In this document: positions 17,099 to 22,719 of the stretch, one piece after another
Layout: each line of letters opens with the position of its first letter
Position numbering within the stretch: the first letter of the stretch is position 1
From: Cryomorphaceae bacterium
GTDB taxonomy: Bacteria; Bacteroidota; Bacteroidia; Flavobacteriales_D; Parvicellaceae
DNA length: 64,000 nucleotides
Reading direction: 5' to 3'
Assembly (NCBI GenBank): GCA_905182525.1
Contig: CAJJBV010000003.1
Location: forward strand, 62,001 to 126,000
The notes under the pieces: generated by a model
The model's database searches: none
Told to the model about the DNA's origin: nothing
Seen by the model: only the letters and a program-made list of their open reading frames with translations
Position numbers and translations under genes: made by a program

Positions 17099-18189
17099 TG
17101 TTCATCTAATTTGCTCTCATTAAGTTTTTCAGCATTTTCTGCCATAATTAAAGCATCTATCATTTCTTGAATATCTCCATTCATAAAGTTAGAAAGATTA
17201 TATATTGTTTTATTAATTCTATGATCTGTAATTCTGCCTTGAGGATAATTATAAGTTCTAATTTTTGCTGATCTGTCTCCTGTAGAAATTAAGGACTTTC
17301 TTTCGTCTGCTCTTTCTTTATCTAATCGTTCTTCTTCTGCTTTATAAAGTCGAGATCTTAAAACTTTTAGTGCTTTTTCATAGTTCTTGTGCTGCGACCT
17401 TCCATCTTGACATTCTACAACAGTTCCTGTTGGTAAGTGAGTAACTCTGACAGCAGATTCTGTTTTATTAACATGTTGTCCTCCAGCACCAGATGCTCTG
17501 TAGGTATCTTTTTTAACATCTGTCAAATTAAGTTCGAAATCAACTTCCTCAGCTTCAGGAAGTACTGCTACAGTAATTGCAGATGTATGTACCCTGCCCT
17601 GAGATTCTGTTTCTGGAACTCTTTGAACTCTGTGAACTCCGGATTCAAATTTTAATTTGCCATAAACTTCATCTCCAGAAATACTTAAGGATATTTCTCT
17701 AAAGCCCTTTGTACCACCTTCATTAGAATTGAGAACTTCAAAGGACCATGATTTTTCTTTAAAAAACATAGTAAACATCCTAAATATATCCTCAACAAAT
17801 ATACAGGCCTCATCACCTCCAGTACCGGACCTAATTTCCATAATGACATTTTTATTGTCATTAGGATCTTTGGGAATTAAAAGCCACTTTATTTTCTCGT
17901 CAAGTTCACTCTTAATACGTTGAAGTTCTTCAAGTTCTTCTCTGGCCATTTCTTTAAACTCAGTATCATTTTCTGTTTGAATAATTGACTTCGCATTAAG
18001 TATATTATCCAGAACATCCTTATAAGAATTATAAGTTTTTACAACTTCAGAAAGTTCTTTATACTCTTTATTTAAACTTACATATCTTTTCATATCAGAA
18101 ATGACATCTGGATCAATCATTTGATTAGAAATCTCATCATATTTAATGGCGATTTGCTCTAACTTATTTAATAAACCTTGATCACTCAT
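17095..18189 (-). CDS. prfA: Peptide chain release factor 1
   Basis: Releases peptides at UAA and UAG; 364 residues. The peptidyl-hydrolase loop YRASGAGGQHVNKTESAVRV carries GGQ; the domain before it has the RF1 blocks SGVHRVQRVPETESQGRVHT. C-terminal RTYNYPQGRITDHRI is also typical. Its ATG overlaps the purM stop by one base (TGATG) and its end overlaps pyrF by four. RF1 is the factor that would compete with any recoding at the TAA codons found at three frame breaks in this window. Confidence 0.98.
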   Translation of the reverse strand: MSDQGLLNKLEQIAIKYDEISNQMIDPDVISDMKRYVSLNKEYKELSEVVKTYNSYKDVLDNILNAKSIIQTENDTEFKEMAREELEELQRIKSELDEKIKWLLIPKDPNDNKNVIMEIRSGTGGDEACIFVEDIFRMFTMFFKEKSWSFEVLNSNEGGTKGFREISLSISGDEVYGKLKFESGVHRVQRVPETESQGRVHTSAITVAVLPEAEEVDFELNLTDVKKDTYRASGAGGQHVNKTESAVRVTHLPTGTVVECQDGRSQHKNYEKALKVLRSRLYKAEEERLDKERADERKSLISTGDRSAKIRTYNYPQGRITDHRINKTIYNLSNFMNGDIQEMIDALIMAENAEKLNESKLDEQ

Positions 18190-19358
18190 CAGTAAATGAA
18201 TTCTCCTTTATCAGAAATAATAGAAAGTTTTTTAGTCTTTAAAGATTCAACCCTTCCAATTTGTTTAGCTTCTAAATTAAAGTCATTACATATATCAACA
18301 ATGGATCGAATATTACTTGGGTTGGTATAAATTTCCATTCTATGGCCCATATTAAAAACCTTATACATTTCTTTCCACGGGGTTTTTGATTCTTTTTGAA
18401 TAAGATCGAATAATGGAGGAACTTCAAAAAGATTATCCTTAATAACATGATTATGATCAATAAAATGAAGAATTTTTGTTTGTGCGCCACCGCTACAATG
18501 AACCATACCATTAATGTCTGCTCGATGCTTTTCTAAAATTTTAACAATTACTGGGGCGTATGTTCGAGTAGGTGATAAAACTAGTTTGCCAGCATTTACA
18601 GGAACCCCTTTAATTTCACTTGTTAGTTCCTTGGATCCAGAATAAACTAAAGAATCTAAAATATTTTGATCGTAAGACTCTGGGTATTTGACACTAAGAT
18701 ACTTTTCAAATACATCATGCCTAGCTGAAGTTAACCCATTACTTCCCATTCCACCGTTGTATTGACTTTCATATGAGGTTTTACCAAAAGATGAAAGTCC
18801 AATAATAGCATCACCTGGTTGAATGTTTTTGTTTGATATTACCTCAGATTTTTTCATTCTAGAGACAACAGTTGAGTCAACAATAATAGTTCTCACTAAA
18901 TCTCCTACATCTGCAGTTTCTCCACCTGTAGAATGGATTTTTAGACCAAAAGATCTGAGTTCTTCTAATATTTCTTCCGTTCCTTGGATAATGGCAGAAA
19001 TAACTTCACCAGGAATTTTATCTTTATTACGACCTATTGTAGAAGAAACTAAAATATTTTCAATTGCTCCAACACATAATAAGTCATCAATATTCATAAT
19101 AAGGGCATCTTGAGCAATTCCCTTCCATACTGAAATGTCTCCAGTTTCTTTCCAATAAGTATAGGCTAATGAAGATTTAGTTCCCGCACCATCAGCGTGC
19201 ATAACGATACAGTGATCATCGCTGTTAGTTAAGTAATCTGGTACTATTTTGCAAAAAGCTTTTGGGAAAAGACCCTTGTCAATGTTTTTGATAGCATTAT
19301 GAACTTCTTCTTTTCCTGAGCTGACACCCCTTAAGGCATATCTAGAATTGTCTTTCAT
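18189..19358 (-). CDS. purM: Phosphoribosylformylglycinamidine cyclo-ligase (AIR synthetase)
   Basis: Purine synthesis enzyme that closes the AIR imidazole ring with ATP; 389 residues, the longer form usual in Bacteroidota. Visible blocks: HADGAGTKSSLAYTYW, WKGIAQDALIMNIDDLLCVG and STGGETADVGDLVRTIIVD near the nucleotide site, and VHCSGGAQTKILHF in the C-terminal half. It overlaps prfA by one base. A 12-bp palindrome lies 10 bp before its ATG, between it and the PorE-like gene. Confidence 0.95.
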   Translation of the reverse strand: MKDNSRYALRGVSSGKEEVHNAIKNIDKGLFPKAFCKIVPDYLTNSDDHCIVMHADGAGTKSSLAYTYWKETGDISVWKGIAQDALIMNIDDLLCVGAIENILVSSTIGRNKDKIPGEVISAIIQGTEEILEELRSFGLKIHSTGGETADVGDLVRTIIVDSTVVSRMKKSEVISNKNIQPGDAIIGLSSFGKTSYESQYNGGMGSNGLTSARHDVFEKYLSVKYPESYDQNILDSLVYSGSKELTSEIKGVPVNAGKLVLSPTRTYAPVIVKILEKHRADINGMVHCSGGAQTKILHFIDHNHVIKDNLFEVPPLFDLIQKESKTPWKEMYKVFNMGHRMEIYTNPSNIRSIVDICNDFNLEAKQIGRVESLKTKKLSIISDKGEFIY

Positions 19359-19395: not shown

Positions 19396-21111
19396 CTATT
19401 TTTCTTTAGAAATATAATCAAAGTTTAAAACAATAAACTGTGTCCTTCTATTTTTTTGATGAGCAGCTTCCTGTTCTTCATTAGTTGATAATTCAGAAAT
19501 AACATCACATTCTAAACCTTTCATTCTTGGTGTTTTTTCTCCATAACCAACTGCTTTCATTCTCTCAGAGGGAATTCCCTTAGAAACTAAATAATCTACA
19601 CATGACTGGGCTCTTCTTTGAGAAAGTTTTTGATTATAATCGTCTCCGCCTCTACAATCAGTGTGAGCCTGTAGCTCAATTACAATTGTTGGGTTGTCAA
19701 TTAAAGTATTGTATAAATAATCTAAAGAATCTTTTGAATTAATTTTGTCTAAAGTGATTTCTAAAGTGTCTACTAAAAGTTCTGCTTTAGCTAAAGCATA
19801 TTGTACTTCAGGAAAATCTATTGCTGTAACGCCCTCTCCAACAGGCTGTACTTCAAATGCATCATAAAAAATATGACTCTTTTCCATATTAATTGTTGAG
19901 AATTTAGATTTTCTAATTAAAAAGCTATCTTTTTGACACTCCACCTCATAAATTAGATTTTCTTCAATATATCTTTTTCCATCTGAAATTTCATTGAAAA
20001 GAATAGTTCCGTCTATATCTGTAGTTTGAACATATTCCGCTACAATACCTCCAGATGTATCAATTGCTGTAACTATAATAGTAGCCCCAGGAACAGGATC
20101 ACCTGTTTCTCTATTATTAACTTCAACTCCGTACTTAAATAAAATAGGTGGAATATTAAAATTAAAAATATCATCATGTCCTCTAGTTCCCTTTCGAGAA
20201 GAAGTGAAAACGCCTCTTCTATCAGTATTTCTTTCTAAAATAATCCCAAAATCATGTTCTGGAGAATTCAGAGGATATCTTAAATTCTCTACATTTCCCC
20301 ACTTTTTGTCTCCTGTACTGTAAGATCTAAACATATCTAACCCACCAAAACCTTCATAACCATCTGATGAAAAATATAATGATCCATCGTCAGAAATATA
20401 TGGAAACATTTCTTCTCCCGAAGTGTTAATGGATGCTCCTAAATTAACTGGACTCATCCAATTACTTTCTCGTTCATCGTATTCTGAAATCCAAAGATCG
20501 TGTGATCCGAATCCACCAGGAAAATCAGCTGAAAATATCATAAACTTCATCTCAGAATCCATCGCTGGATGACCACAAGATAAGGTGTCGCCACCTTCAG
20601 GTTTTAAATTTATTTTTTCAGACTGGGACCATGAATCACCTTTTCTTTCAGAGTAGAAAATCTCACATCCTAAGTTAACTTTTTTTAGTCTTGGGCACCT
20701 AGTAAAGTATATTTTATCCCCCATAGGTGAAAGTACCGATGGCCCTTCGTTGTCCTTTGAGTTTATTGTGTTTGGTAATAATTGAGGTTCACTCCATTTA
20801 CCGTTATTGTCTCTATTAGTTGACCATAAATCCATATAACTGTCTCCAGTTCGTGAATCAATTCCATTTCCAAGAGAACCATCTCTTGCAGAAACAAAAA
20901 TAATTGTGTTATGGTCTATGTCTCCCCAAGCTGGAGAATAATCATAATGTTCAGAATTGATTTGTCTTTCATTTTGAATGATATGTTTTGTCTTATTTTT
21001 TACCCATTCTGAAAAGTGTTCACATGATGATAATAATTTGATAGCATGATCATCCTTTGGGTAAAATTCAAGATATTTTTTAATGAATTCTAGAAGCATT
21101 TTCATACTCAC
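19396..21111 (-). CDS. PorE-like T9SS/OmpA-family protein, PD40-CRD-OmpA part (after a frameshift)
   Basis: 571 residues forming the larger part of a gene broken near 21082. In order: end of the TPR region (KKYLEFYPKDDHAIKLL), a PD40/WD40-like propeller (for example AWGDIDHNTIIFVSARDGSL, about residues 60-320), a carboxypeptidase-regulatory-like domain (EVNNRETGDPVPGATIIVTA), and a C-terminal OmpA domain that binds peptidoglycan (ELQAHTDCRGGDDYNQKLSQ, RRAQSCVDYLVSKGI). TPR-PD40-CRD-OmpA is the architecture of PorE, which anchors type IX secretion parts to the cell wall. The GTG start at 21111 is an artefact of the frame break: the true start is that of the preceding fragment at 21472. Confidence 0.85.
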   Translation of the reverse strand: MSMKMLLEFIKKYLEFYPKDDHAIKLLSSCEHFSEWVKNKTKHIIQNERQINSEHYDYSPAWGDIDHNTIIFVSARDGSLGNGIDSRTGDSYMDLWSTNRDNNGKWSEPQLLPNTINSKDNEGPSVLSPMGDKIYFTRCPRLKKVNLGCEIFYSERKGDSWSQSEKINLKPEGGDTLSCGHPAMDSEMKFMIFSADFPGGFGSHDLWISEYDERESNWMSPVNLGASINTSGEEMFPYISDDGSLYFSSDGYEGFGGLDMFRSYSTGDKKWGNVENLRYPLNSPEHDFGIILERNTDRRGVFTSSRKGTRGHDDIFNFNIPPILFKYGVEVNNRETGDPVPGATIIVTAIDTSGGIVAEYVQTTDIDGTILFNEISDGKRYIEENLIYEVECQKDSFLIRKSKFSTINMEKSHIFYDAFEVQPVGEGVTAIDFPEVQYALAKAELLVDTLEITLDKINSKDSLDYLYNTLIDNPTIVIELQAHTDCRGGDDYNQKLSQRRAQSCVDYLVSKGIPSERMKAVGYGEKTPRMKGLECDVISELSTNEEQEAAHQKNRRTQFIVLNFDYISKEK

Positions 21112-21472
21112 CTTGTTCTACCAATACATCAGAAAGTAAGATTAGTAATTTAGGGTGATCTTTTTGATATTTTAATTTCATTGCACGCTTGTAGTAGGTT
21201 TCCGCTTGGGCAGGCTCAACATCAAGTCTATAACATTCCGCTATTTGAAAGTTAATTCTACCTTTCTCAACAATATCTTTAACTTTTACTTCTCCTTTTT
21301 TGTATAAATCAATAGCATCAAAGTAGGCCTCATTTTTAAAAGTTTTGTCTGCCTGAACTATATATGGGTTCTTATTTTGAGAGTAATTTGTATTAGCAAC
21401 TAAAAGAAAAGCTAAAACAATTAAGAGTTTAGCGGTTCCCAAATAATCTTTACAACATTTTAATAATTTCAT
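21080..21472 (-). CDS. PorE-like protein, signal peptide and TPR part (ends at a frameshift)
   Basis: 130 residues: a signal peptide (LLIVLAFLLVANTNYSQ, cleavage near residue 32) and TPR-like helices (VQADKTFKNEAYFDAIDLYK, RINFQIAECYRLDVEPAQAE). The frame stops at TAA 21082-21080 in ASRIH-stop. Removing one T from the context CAT-T-AAA joins it to KKYLEFYPKDD of the next frame, restoring a protein of about 700 residues. The broken protein would lose its export signal from the OmpA part. Sequencing error, real mutation and +1 recoding all remain possible. Confidence 0.85.
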   Translation of the reverse strand: MKLLKCCKDYLGTAKLLIVLAFLLVANTNYSQNKNPYIVQADKTFKNEAYFDAIDLYKKGEVKVKDIVEKGRINFQIAECYRLDVEPAQAETYYKRAMKLKYQKDHPKLLILLSDVLVEQGEYENASRIH

Positions 21473-21572: not shown

Positions 21573-21680
21573 TGTTAATAAATTAGTGTTTAATTAACAC
21601 TAAGGAGGGGTTTTGTTAATAAATTTTAAGCAATAAATTTCAAATTTATTTACTGTCAAATTTGGAAAAATATATATTTG
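21573..21680 (+). promoter_or_regulatory. glnA control region: direct repeats, two inverted repeats and -7 box
   Basis: Within the 236-bp gap before glnA: a 12-base direct repeat TGTTAATAAATT at 21573-21584 and 21614-21625 (41 bases apart); an inverted repeat TTAGTGTT-TAATT-AACACTAA at 21583-21603; a second, nearly gapless one AATAAATTT-C-AAATTTATT at 21632-21650; and TATATTTG (21673-21680) matching the -7 box. The ATG is 28 bases further on. The layout suggests regulator sites just upstream of the promoter, plausibly for nitrogen control; that is inference. Confidence 0.5.
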
Positions 21681-21708
21681 TTTTAATTACCTAACAAAAA
21701 ATAAAAAA

Positions 21709-22719
21709 ATGACAAAGTCAAAATTAGAATACATATGGTTAGATGGTTATAATCCTACTCAAAATATGAGAAGCAAAACTAAAATAGTAGAAAATTTTAG
21801 TGGTAAATTGGAAGACTGTCCAATTTGGTCTTTTGATGGCAGTTCAACTAGGCAAGCAGAAGGTAACTTTTCAGATTGTTTATTAAAGCCCGTTGCATGC
21901 TATCCTGACCCTGTTAGAGAAAATGGATTTTTAATTATGACTGAAGTTTTAAAAGCTGATGGTGTAGCTCATGATTCCAATGCAAGAGCAAAAATTGATG
22001 ATGATGACAATGACTTTTGGTTTGGTTTTGAACAGGAATATTTTATAATGGATGTAAATACGCTTCTTCCACTGGGATTCCCTGTAGGCGGCTATCCTGG
22101 ACCACAAGGAATGTATTATTGTTCAGTTGGCGGAAGAAATACTCATGGAAGACACCTTGTTGATGAACATGCTGATATTTGTATTGAAGCTGGAATAAAT
22201 ATTGAAGGTATCAACCAAGAAGTCGCTAGTGGACAATGGGAATTTCAATTATTTGCTAAGGGTGCTAAAAAAGCAGGTGATGAAATGTGGATAGCTAGAT
22301 ATATTTTAGATAGATTGACTGAAGACCATGGATATTATATTGAATACCACCCAAAACCTGTGAAGGGAGACTGGAATGGATCTGGAATGCATGCAAATTT
22401 CTCAAACACCTTACTTCGAACTTGTGGTTCTAAGGAAGTTTATGAAAAAGTATGTGAAGCATTTAGACCGGTTACTAAAGAGCATATTGAGGTTTATGGA
22501 GAATTTAATGATCAAAGATTAACAGGACTCCACGAAACAGCTTCAATTACTGACTTTAGTTATGGAGTATCTGACAGAGGAGCATCAATTAGAATCCCTA
22601 TTATAACTGTAGAAAGCGGTTGGAAAGGATGGTTAGAAGACCGAAGACCAGCATCAAACGGAGATCCATATAAAATTGCAGGAAGAATTGTTAAAACTGT
22701 AAAAAACGTAAAAATATAA
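21709..22719 (+). CDS. glnA: Glutamine synthetase, type II (eukaryote-like)
   Basis: Makes glutamine from glutamate, ammonia and ATP; 336 residues, the short GSII form rather than the about 470-residue GSI. Motifs: LEYIWLDGYN, CPIWSFDGSSTRQAEGNFSD, FWFGFEQEYFIMD (metal-binding Glu residues), GQWEFQLF, GDWNGSGMHANFSNT, and GVSDRGASIRIPI. GSII lacks the adenylylation Tyr loop of GSI, so control is expected to be transcriptional, which fits the repeat-rich upstream region. It is a lone plus-strand gene between two minus-strand blocks. GSII is regularly seen in Flavobacteriia. Confidence 0.95.
   Translation: MTKSKLEYIWLDGYNPTQNMRSKTKIVENFSGKLEDCPIWSFDGSSTRQAEGNFSDCLLKPVACYPDPVRENGFLIMTEVLKADGVAHDSNARAKIDDDDNDFWFGFEQEYFIMDVNTLLPLGFPVGGYPGPQGMYYCSVGGRNTHGRHLVDEHADICIEAGINIEGINQEVASGQWEFQLFAKGAKKAGDEMWIARYILDRLTEDHGYYIEYHPKPVKGDWNGSGMHANFSNTLLRTCGSKEVYEKVCEAFRPVTKEHIEVYGEFNDQRLTGLHETASITDFSYGVSDRGASIRIPIITVESGWKGWLEDRRPASNGDPYKIAGRIVKTVKNVKI

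Follow-up and report, generated by a model that had tools for sequence, protein, structure and literature searches.

The window analyzed here is a 64,000-nucleotide stretch (C3:62001-126000) of a 2.19-Mb Flavobacteriales genome (G000), whose closest named relatives are MAGs of uncultured Flavobacteriales and Crocinitomicaceae. On its forward strand, at positions 21709 to 22719, it carries glnII, encoding a type II glutamine synthetase (GSII) of 336 amino acids, which matches NF041605 with an E value of 4.1e-114 and a score of 381 bits, below the curated cutoff of 500. The intergenic region upstream of glnII is 236 bp long, is 84% AT, and is shared with a divergently oriented PorE-like gene, the 5' part of which (21080 to 21472, reverse strand) was assigned from the list of open reading frames (ORFs), the PorE match of its downstream ORF, and synteny. 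The PorE-like gene as a whole (window positions 19396 to 21472, reverse strand) is read in two overlapping frames with a break near 21080-21111, which is either a real or an assembly frameshift. On the same strand, at window positions 18189 to 19358, a purM-like gene scores 115 bits against a cutoff of 236 and represents a divergent relative of AIR synthetase.

A sequence-only reading had described a dense repeat array upstream of the GSII gene, and each of its repeats is present where that reading placed it. A 12-mer, TGTTAATAAATT, occurs on the forward strand at 21573-21584 and again, with a spacing of 41 bp, at 21614-21625; an inverted repeat with 8-bp arms, TTAGTGTT-N5-AACACTAA, lies at 21583-21603; and a palindrome with 9-bp arms, AATAAATTT-N1-AAATTTATT, lies at 21632-21650. 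The −7 box of the glnII promoter, TATATTTG, is located at 21673-21680 on the forward strand. As a control for chance, we shuffled the 236-bp intergenic region 3,000 times under a first-order Markov model. A direct repeat of a 12-mer was found in 18.5% of these shuffles, an inverted repeat with 8-bp arms and a spacer of up to 6 in 33.9%, and one with 9-bp arms and a spacer of up to 3 in 9.6%; 2.0% contained all three kinds at once, as did 1 of 541 tiles of the window. Such repeats are frequent in DNA this rich in AT, and each of them, being near chance level when taken singly, is weak evidence.

Conservation was expressed as the mean majority-base fraction per segment in an alignment of the glnII upstream regions from the 11 genomes of the genus. 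This fraction is 0.96 for the 8-bp-arm palindrome, 0.97 for positions 21611-21624, where the second 12-mer lies, and 0.93 around the −7 box (21666-21680). The upstream flank, by comparison, reaches 0.72, the 9-bp-arm palindrome 0.65, and the first 12-mer, taken over the bases that it does not share with the 8-bp-arm palindrome (21573-21582), 0.69. Conservation in relatives, the point on which the array had been proposed to stand or fall, was thus found for two of the elements, the 8-bp-arm palindrome and the second copy of the 12-mer, indicating that these are real. The 41-bp direct repeat and the 9-bp-arm palindrome, in contrast, are not conserved, so that the "dense array" is partly coincidence; we rejected both as functional elements, including the idea of a repeat spaced at four helical turns. 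The expectation of transcriptional control ahead of GSII, for which no regulator had been named, fared better, since the footprint strongly supports a conserved transcription control region.

The conserved stretch downstream of the palindrome defines a 13-bp element, TTTTGTTRATAAA (21611-21623, forward strand), which contains the second 12-mer copy and is referred to here as element B. The 7-bp spacer between the palindrome and element B (21604-21610) is constant in length, with no gap in the genus alignment, and variable in sequence (majority fraction of 0.61). The element B pattern TTGTYRAWAA was found in 35 of 99 glnII upstream regions, a count that includes duplicates (loci L002-L005 and L058 share contigs with L085, L083, L090, L094, and L095), versus 3.2 expected and at most 9 in 200 rounds. 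In upstream regions with a strict TAnnTTTG box, its distances to that box are 48-49, 59-61, or 68-70, forming clusters about one helical turn apart, and within the genus the distance to the glnII −7 box is 59-61. Element B is probably the site of a second protein; a resemblance to DnaA boxes or Crp sites is conceivable. It is not frequent beyond glnII: TTTTGTTRATAAA has 4 matches in the genome versus 8 for the control, and by ORF reading the copy at glnII is the sole genomic match that clearly lies between genes, so we discarded it as a genome-wide site.

The 8-bp-arm palindrome reads TTAGTGT-N7-ACACTAA, is perfect over its 21 bp in the window, and is a candidate operator for a dimer of the NrtR/AraR family. 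We collected glnII upstream regions from all 11 genomes of the genus and all 4 of its sister genus g9, amounting with further loci to the 99 mentioned above; this set does not include the second GSII locus of G031 or the truncated GSII gene of G021. With up to 2 mismatches allowed in 14 positions, the palindrome is present in the genus and g9 before glnII in 15/15 cases (L002-L005 and L058 excluded), before amt in 11/11, and before the gene for a regulator termed N type here in 10/10, compared with 0.2 to 0.3% of shuffled upstream regions, although these counts are not all independent, since G018/G031 and G025/G035 are near copies. The proposal that the same repeats should precede other nitrogen genes holds for the palindrome, which is found upstream of amt and of the regulator gene and, in one genome, upstream of asnB.

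The window's own genome contains three perfect copies of the palindrome (0.013 expected under a first-order model of the window), located before glnII, before a run of a small ORF, amt, and asnB (the latter two identified by PF00909 and PF00733 matches), and in the gap separating a sulfatase gene from an ORF that resembles outer-membrane proteins. Sites with up to 2 mismatches show no excess in this genome (24 versus 27 in the control), which means that only strong or recurrent sites count; genome-wide counts at this mismatch level, showing no consistent excess, were set aside. At G000:C1:139384-140448 one 21-mer occurs five times in 261-bp steps, with a sixth copy at 137557, probably reflecting a tandem-repeat gene. 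Additionally, G005, G002, and G006 have a similar palindrome ahead of a gene for a TonB-dependent receptor (L150, L153, and L156).

A search of 39 family genomes gave 12 full-length amt genes and one fragment. At the 11 loci of the genus and g9, the palindrome lies 238 to 264 bp before amt and 21 to 37 bp before the small ORF, and in all 11 it begins 1 to 2 nt past a TTTG or CTTG box, the full TAnnTTTG being exact only in G025 and G035. Outside these two genera, the amt gene of G022 has no palindrome upstream. The small ORF encodes 64 to 70 amino acids with the start KKR(S/T)LN..RQTKD and lies directly before amt at 11/11 loci (L144:3435-3650; L209-L218 and L221); the one tested has no Pfam match, and it occupies the position that PII has ahead of amt in Flavobacteriaceae. 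Nine asnB genes were found with E values of 1e-150 or better. Five are situated behind amt; in G006, where asnB stands by itself, a perfect palindrome of its own lies 44 bp ahead of the gene's start; and three, including that of G035 from the sister genus, have none. The palindrome is likewise absent from the four GSII upstream regions of genera g4 and g7, which are without an N-type orthologue.

The regulator first appears in G001, where the palindrome lies 25 bp before the gene for an NrtR/AraR-like protein. Orthologues of this N-type protein (70 to 100% identity) occur in 8 of the 11 genus genomes and 2 of the 4 g9 genomes, and none was found in the other 24 family genomes searched. Their palindromes carry 0 to 2 mismatches and in 9 of the 10 cases lie 23 to 32 bp before the start codon. 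The G001 protein matches the C-terminal NrtR/AraR winged helix models PF21906 (69.7 bits) and PF19368 (50.3 bits), both over the cutoff, as does the N-type protein of the window's own genome, and the N-terminal Nudix-fold domain is covered by a full-length match to AraR and NrtR structures. PF00293 has no match in the two N-type proteins searched and one in a sugar-type paralogue, which fits an impaired Nudix signature. In a tree of 49 NrtR-like proteins, the 10 N-type sequences form one group (100/100) on a long stem; its position among the NrtR branches is unsure. The gene of the window's own genome (G000:C1:317580, L197) has an open frame, no ATG, GTG, or TTG in frame at the expected start, and the weakest upstream palindrome, with 2 mismatches. 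Among the 15 genomes with a glnII palindrome, the N-type gene was not detected in 5, four of which are at most 69% complete and one of which (G005) is 92% complete.

AraR of Bacteroides thetaiotaomicron (BtAraR, BT0354) belongs to the NrtR family and, in the portion of PMC4666351 available, is described as having a 21-bp motif with GTGT-N7-ACAC sites, a dimer spanning 25 bp of DNA, base contacts through K179, N181, K184, K204, and R205 with R180 intercalated, and variants (R34N and F49Q) whose DNA binding persisted when arabinose was added. Its operator and the palindrome described here have in common the GTGT-N7-ACAC core, the arm spacing, and the 21-bp length. At the C18 position, both halves are exact in the window site and in 32 of 36 sites, with A in 4; GTG/TGT and ACA are otherwise near invariant in this 36-site set. 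The N-type protein aligns with BtAraR over its full length (3.4e-40), and its model (pLDDT of 87.1) matches the BtAraR fold with a Foldseek value of 1.6e-22.

For a comparison of residues we used 9 of the 10 N-type proteins (L223 was left out, and L160 and L190 are the same gene). Among the DNA-contact residues, R180, N181, R183, and R205 are kept in all nine and K179 in eight, the window's own genome having T; K184 is replaced by R and K204 by G throughout. The arabinose contacts R86 and H131 are kept, but the pocket differs in all nine at R34 (now N or K), G47, G48, and F49, so that none shows the R34/R86/H131 set of an arabinose AraR orthologue. This suggests that the DNA-reading head has largely been kept and the sensor changed. 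The targets differ as well: BtAraR acts on arabinose genes, whereas the palindrome precedes glnII, amt, asnB, and the regulator's own gene. XylR (BT0791), which responds to xylose, is another NrtR-family member according to the available parts of PMC3878776 and PMC4666351, and the N-type protein is likened to it by family alone. The NrtR of NAD metabolism (Shewanella, PDB 3gz5/3gz6) has the same family and fold (3e-17; Foldseek, 1.6e-17) but only 24 to 25% identity in the fold match, and no NAD biosynthesis or salvage genes were noticed beside the palindromes in the part of the genome's sites examined. NtrC, GlnR/TnrA, NtcA, and AmtR, the classical nitrogen regulators acting on glutamine synthetase and ammonium transport genes, belong to protein families unrelated to NrtR.

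The computation shows where the sites lie, that they are conserved, which genes follow them, and how the regulator is related to known proteins; from this we consider it likely that the palindrome is the operator of an autoregulated N-type repressor of the NrtR family that controls nitrogen assimilation; binding by the N-type protein, the sign of regulation, and the signal are the parts that we infer. The binder would be an NrtR/AraR-family dimer combining a catalytically dead Nudix-fold sensor with a winged helix, the likeliest candidate being the N-type member (G000:C1:317580 and its orthologues in relatives). At amt, the palindrome begins just past the −7-like box and would cover the start site, making repression the simplest reading, and a dimer lying over the transcription start would repress both its own gene and the small ORF-amt(-asnB) operon. 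The arrangement at glnII is unlike that at amt, since the palindrome lies far upstream. If the flavobacterial −7 box consensus TAnnTTTG is taken as −12 to −5, as in the available part of PMC9723704, the glnII transcript would start near 21685; the palindrome would then span −102 to −82, and element B −74 to −62. Given that the palindrome adjoins element B, the dimer might act from −92 by hindering or helping a protein at element B, and the sign of its action at glnII is uncertain. A small molecule reporting the nitrogen (or linked carbon) state would sit in the remodeled sensor pocket and release the dimer.

The main rival places a sugar-type paralogue (the clade of G000:C1:191382), alone or together with the N-type protein, on the palindromes, so that glnII and amt would follow the supply of carbon in the form of polysaccharides. 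The sugar-type paralogues have the same DNA-contact residues as the N-type proteins, and similar sites are found before outer-membrane, sulfatase, sulfatase-maturation, and TonB-receptor genes, those at C1:212889, 224021, and 237073 lying within about 46 kb of the sugar-type gene. G005, moreover, has the paralogues and the glnII palindrome with no N-type gene detected. However, the palindrome that accompanies every N-type gene is found with fewer than 4 mismatches at none of the eight sugar-type genes of the genus (L198-L205); the g9 sugar-type gene L226 has an upstream site with 2 mismatches. In G009 the N-type protein is the sole NrtR-family member detected, yet the glnII and amt sites are present, and genera g4 and g7 have sugar-type genes (G013 and G016) but lack the glnII palindrome. 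We therefore regard control by the sugar-type paralogue as unlikely.

It is quite improbable that the palindrome is the site of an unrelated regulator that has the N-type gene as just one of its targets: control of the N-type gene by the site need not mean that the N-type protein itself binds the site, but the match to the AraR operator in core, arm spacing, and length, together with the largely kept contact residues, points to the NrtR family. Even less probable is a palindrome serving the divergent PorE-like gene instead of glnII. The PorE-like gene is syntenic at all loci of the genus and the palindrome lies midway in the intergenic region; against this, elsewhere the palindrome is followed by amt, asnB, or the regulator gene, the same PorE-like/glnII pair occurs without it in g4 and g7, and its spacing is constant to element B, which is itself tied to the glnII −7 box. 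Repeats arising by chance, or an RNA structure, are hardly credible. The repeat count is weak by itself, and chance does account for the two elements that lack conservation, the first 12-mer copy and the palindrome with 9-bp arms; conservation and recurrence contradict it for the 8-bp-arm palindrome, and conservation does so for element B. The position of the 8-bp-arm palindrome upstream of the conserved −7 box puts it outside the leader from that promoter, and no Rfam match reached the gathering score (the best, SAM-II, has 20 of 44 bits and lies outside the element), which led us to discard an RNA element.

Among the far glnII upstream regions, 4 of 80 have the core in exact form no more than 63 bp ahead of the start codon (0.03 expected), a number reached in 0 of 400 shuffle rounds. 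A third NrtR branch (L274-L280) was considered as a possible binder of these four cores; a gene of this branch is present in three of the four genomes (G065, G067, and G068; none was detected in G066) and also in G071, G072, G074, and G076, where the glnII core is absent. A different motif, ACCCC-N8..11-GGGGT with up to 2 mismatches of 10, occurs in 49 of the 99 glnII upstream regions, a count taken without a shuffle control and including the duplicates listed above. It lies mostly 111 to 125 bp before the start codon, which is the slot of the palindrome here, and at the 5 loci where both were matched, 8 or 19 bp separate its end from the start of element B. In 3 of 3 Flavobacteriaceae genomes searched, it is found, among other matches, before the PII-amt pair (PF00543 for one).

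Tentatively, and with slightly less than even credence, we propose that the NrtR branch with the rebuilt pocket is the nitrogen status regulator of glnII, the amt operon, asnB, and itself in a marine Flavobacteriales lineage and that the promoter layout, in which element B follows a palindrome after about 20 bp, has been kept in common with Flavobacteriaceae despite an exchange of the regulator; in Flavobacteriaceae, ACCCC-N9/10-GGGGT would be the operator in the palindrome slot before glnII and in front of PII-amt. Transcription-level control of nitrogen assimilation in Bacteroidota seems open: no transcription regulator of this kind is named in the available part of a study of nitrogen in Prevotella, and in the open-access literature we found no report, though one may exist elsewhere, tying NrtR/Nudix regulators or sequence motifs to nitrogen control in Bacteroidota. 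The analysis yields a candidate regulator, a candidate operator, their targets, and a testable sensor pocket, and it points to a second operator type in Flavobacteriaceae. The ACCCC-N9/10-GGGGT palindromes of the Flavobacteriaceae glnII and PII-amt promoters are often paired (L258, L259, and L260).
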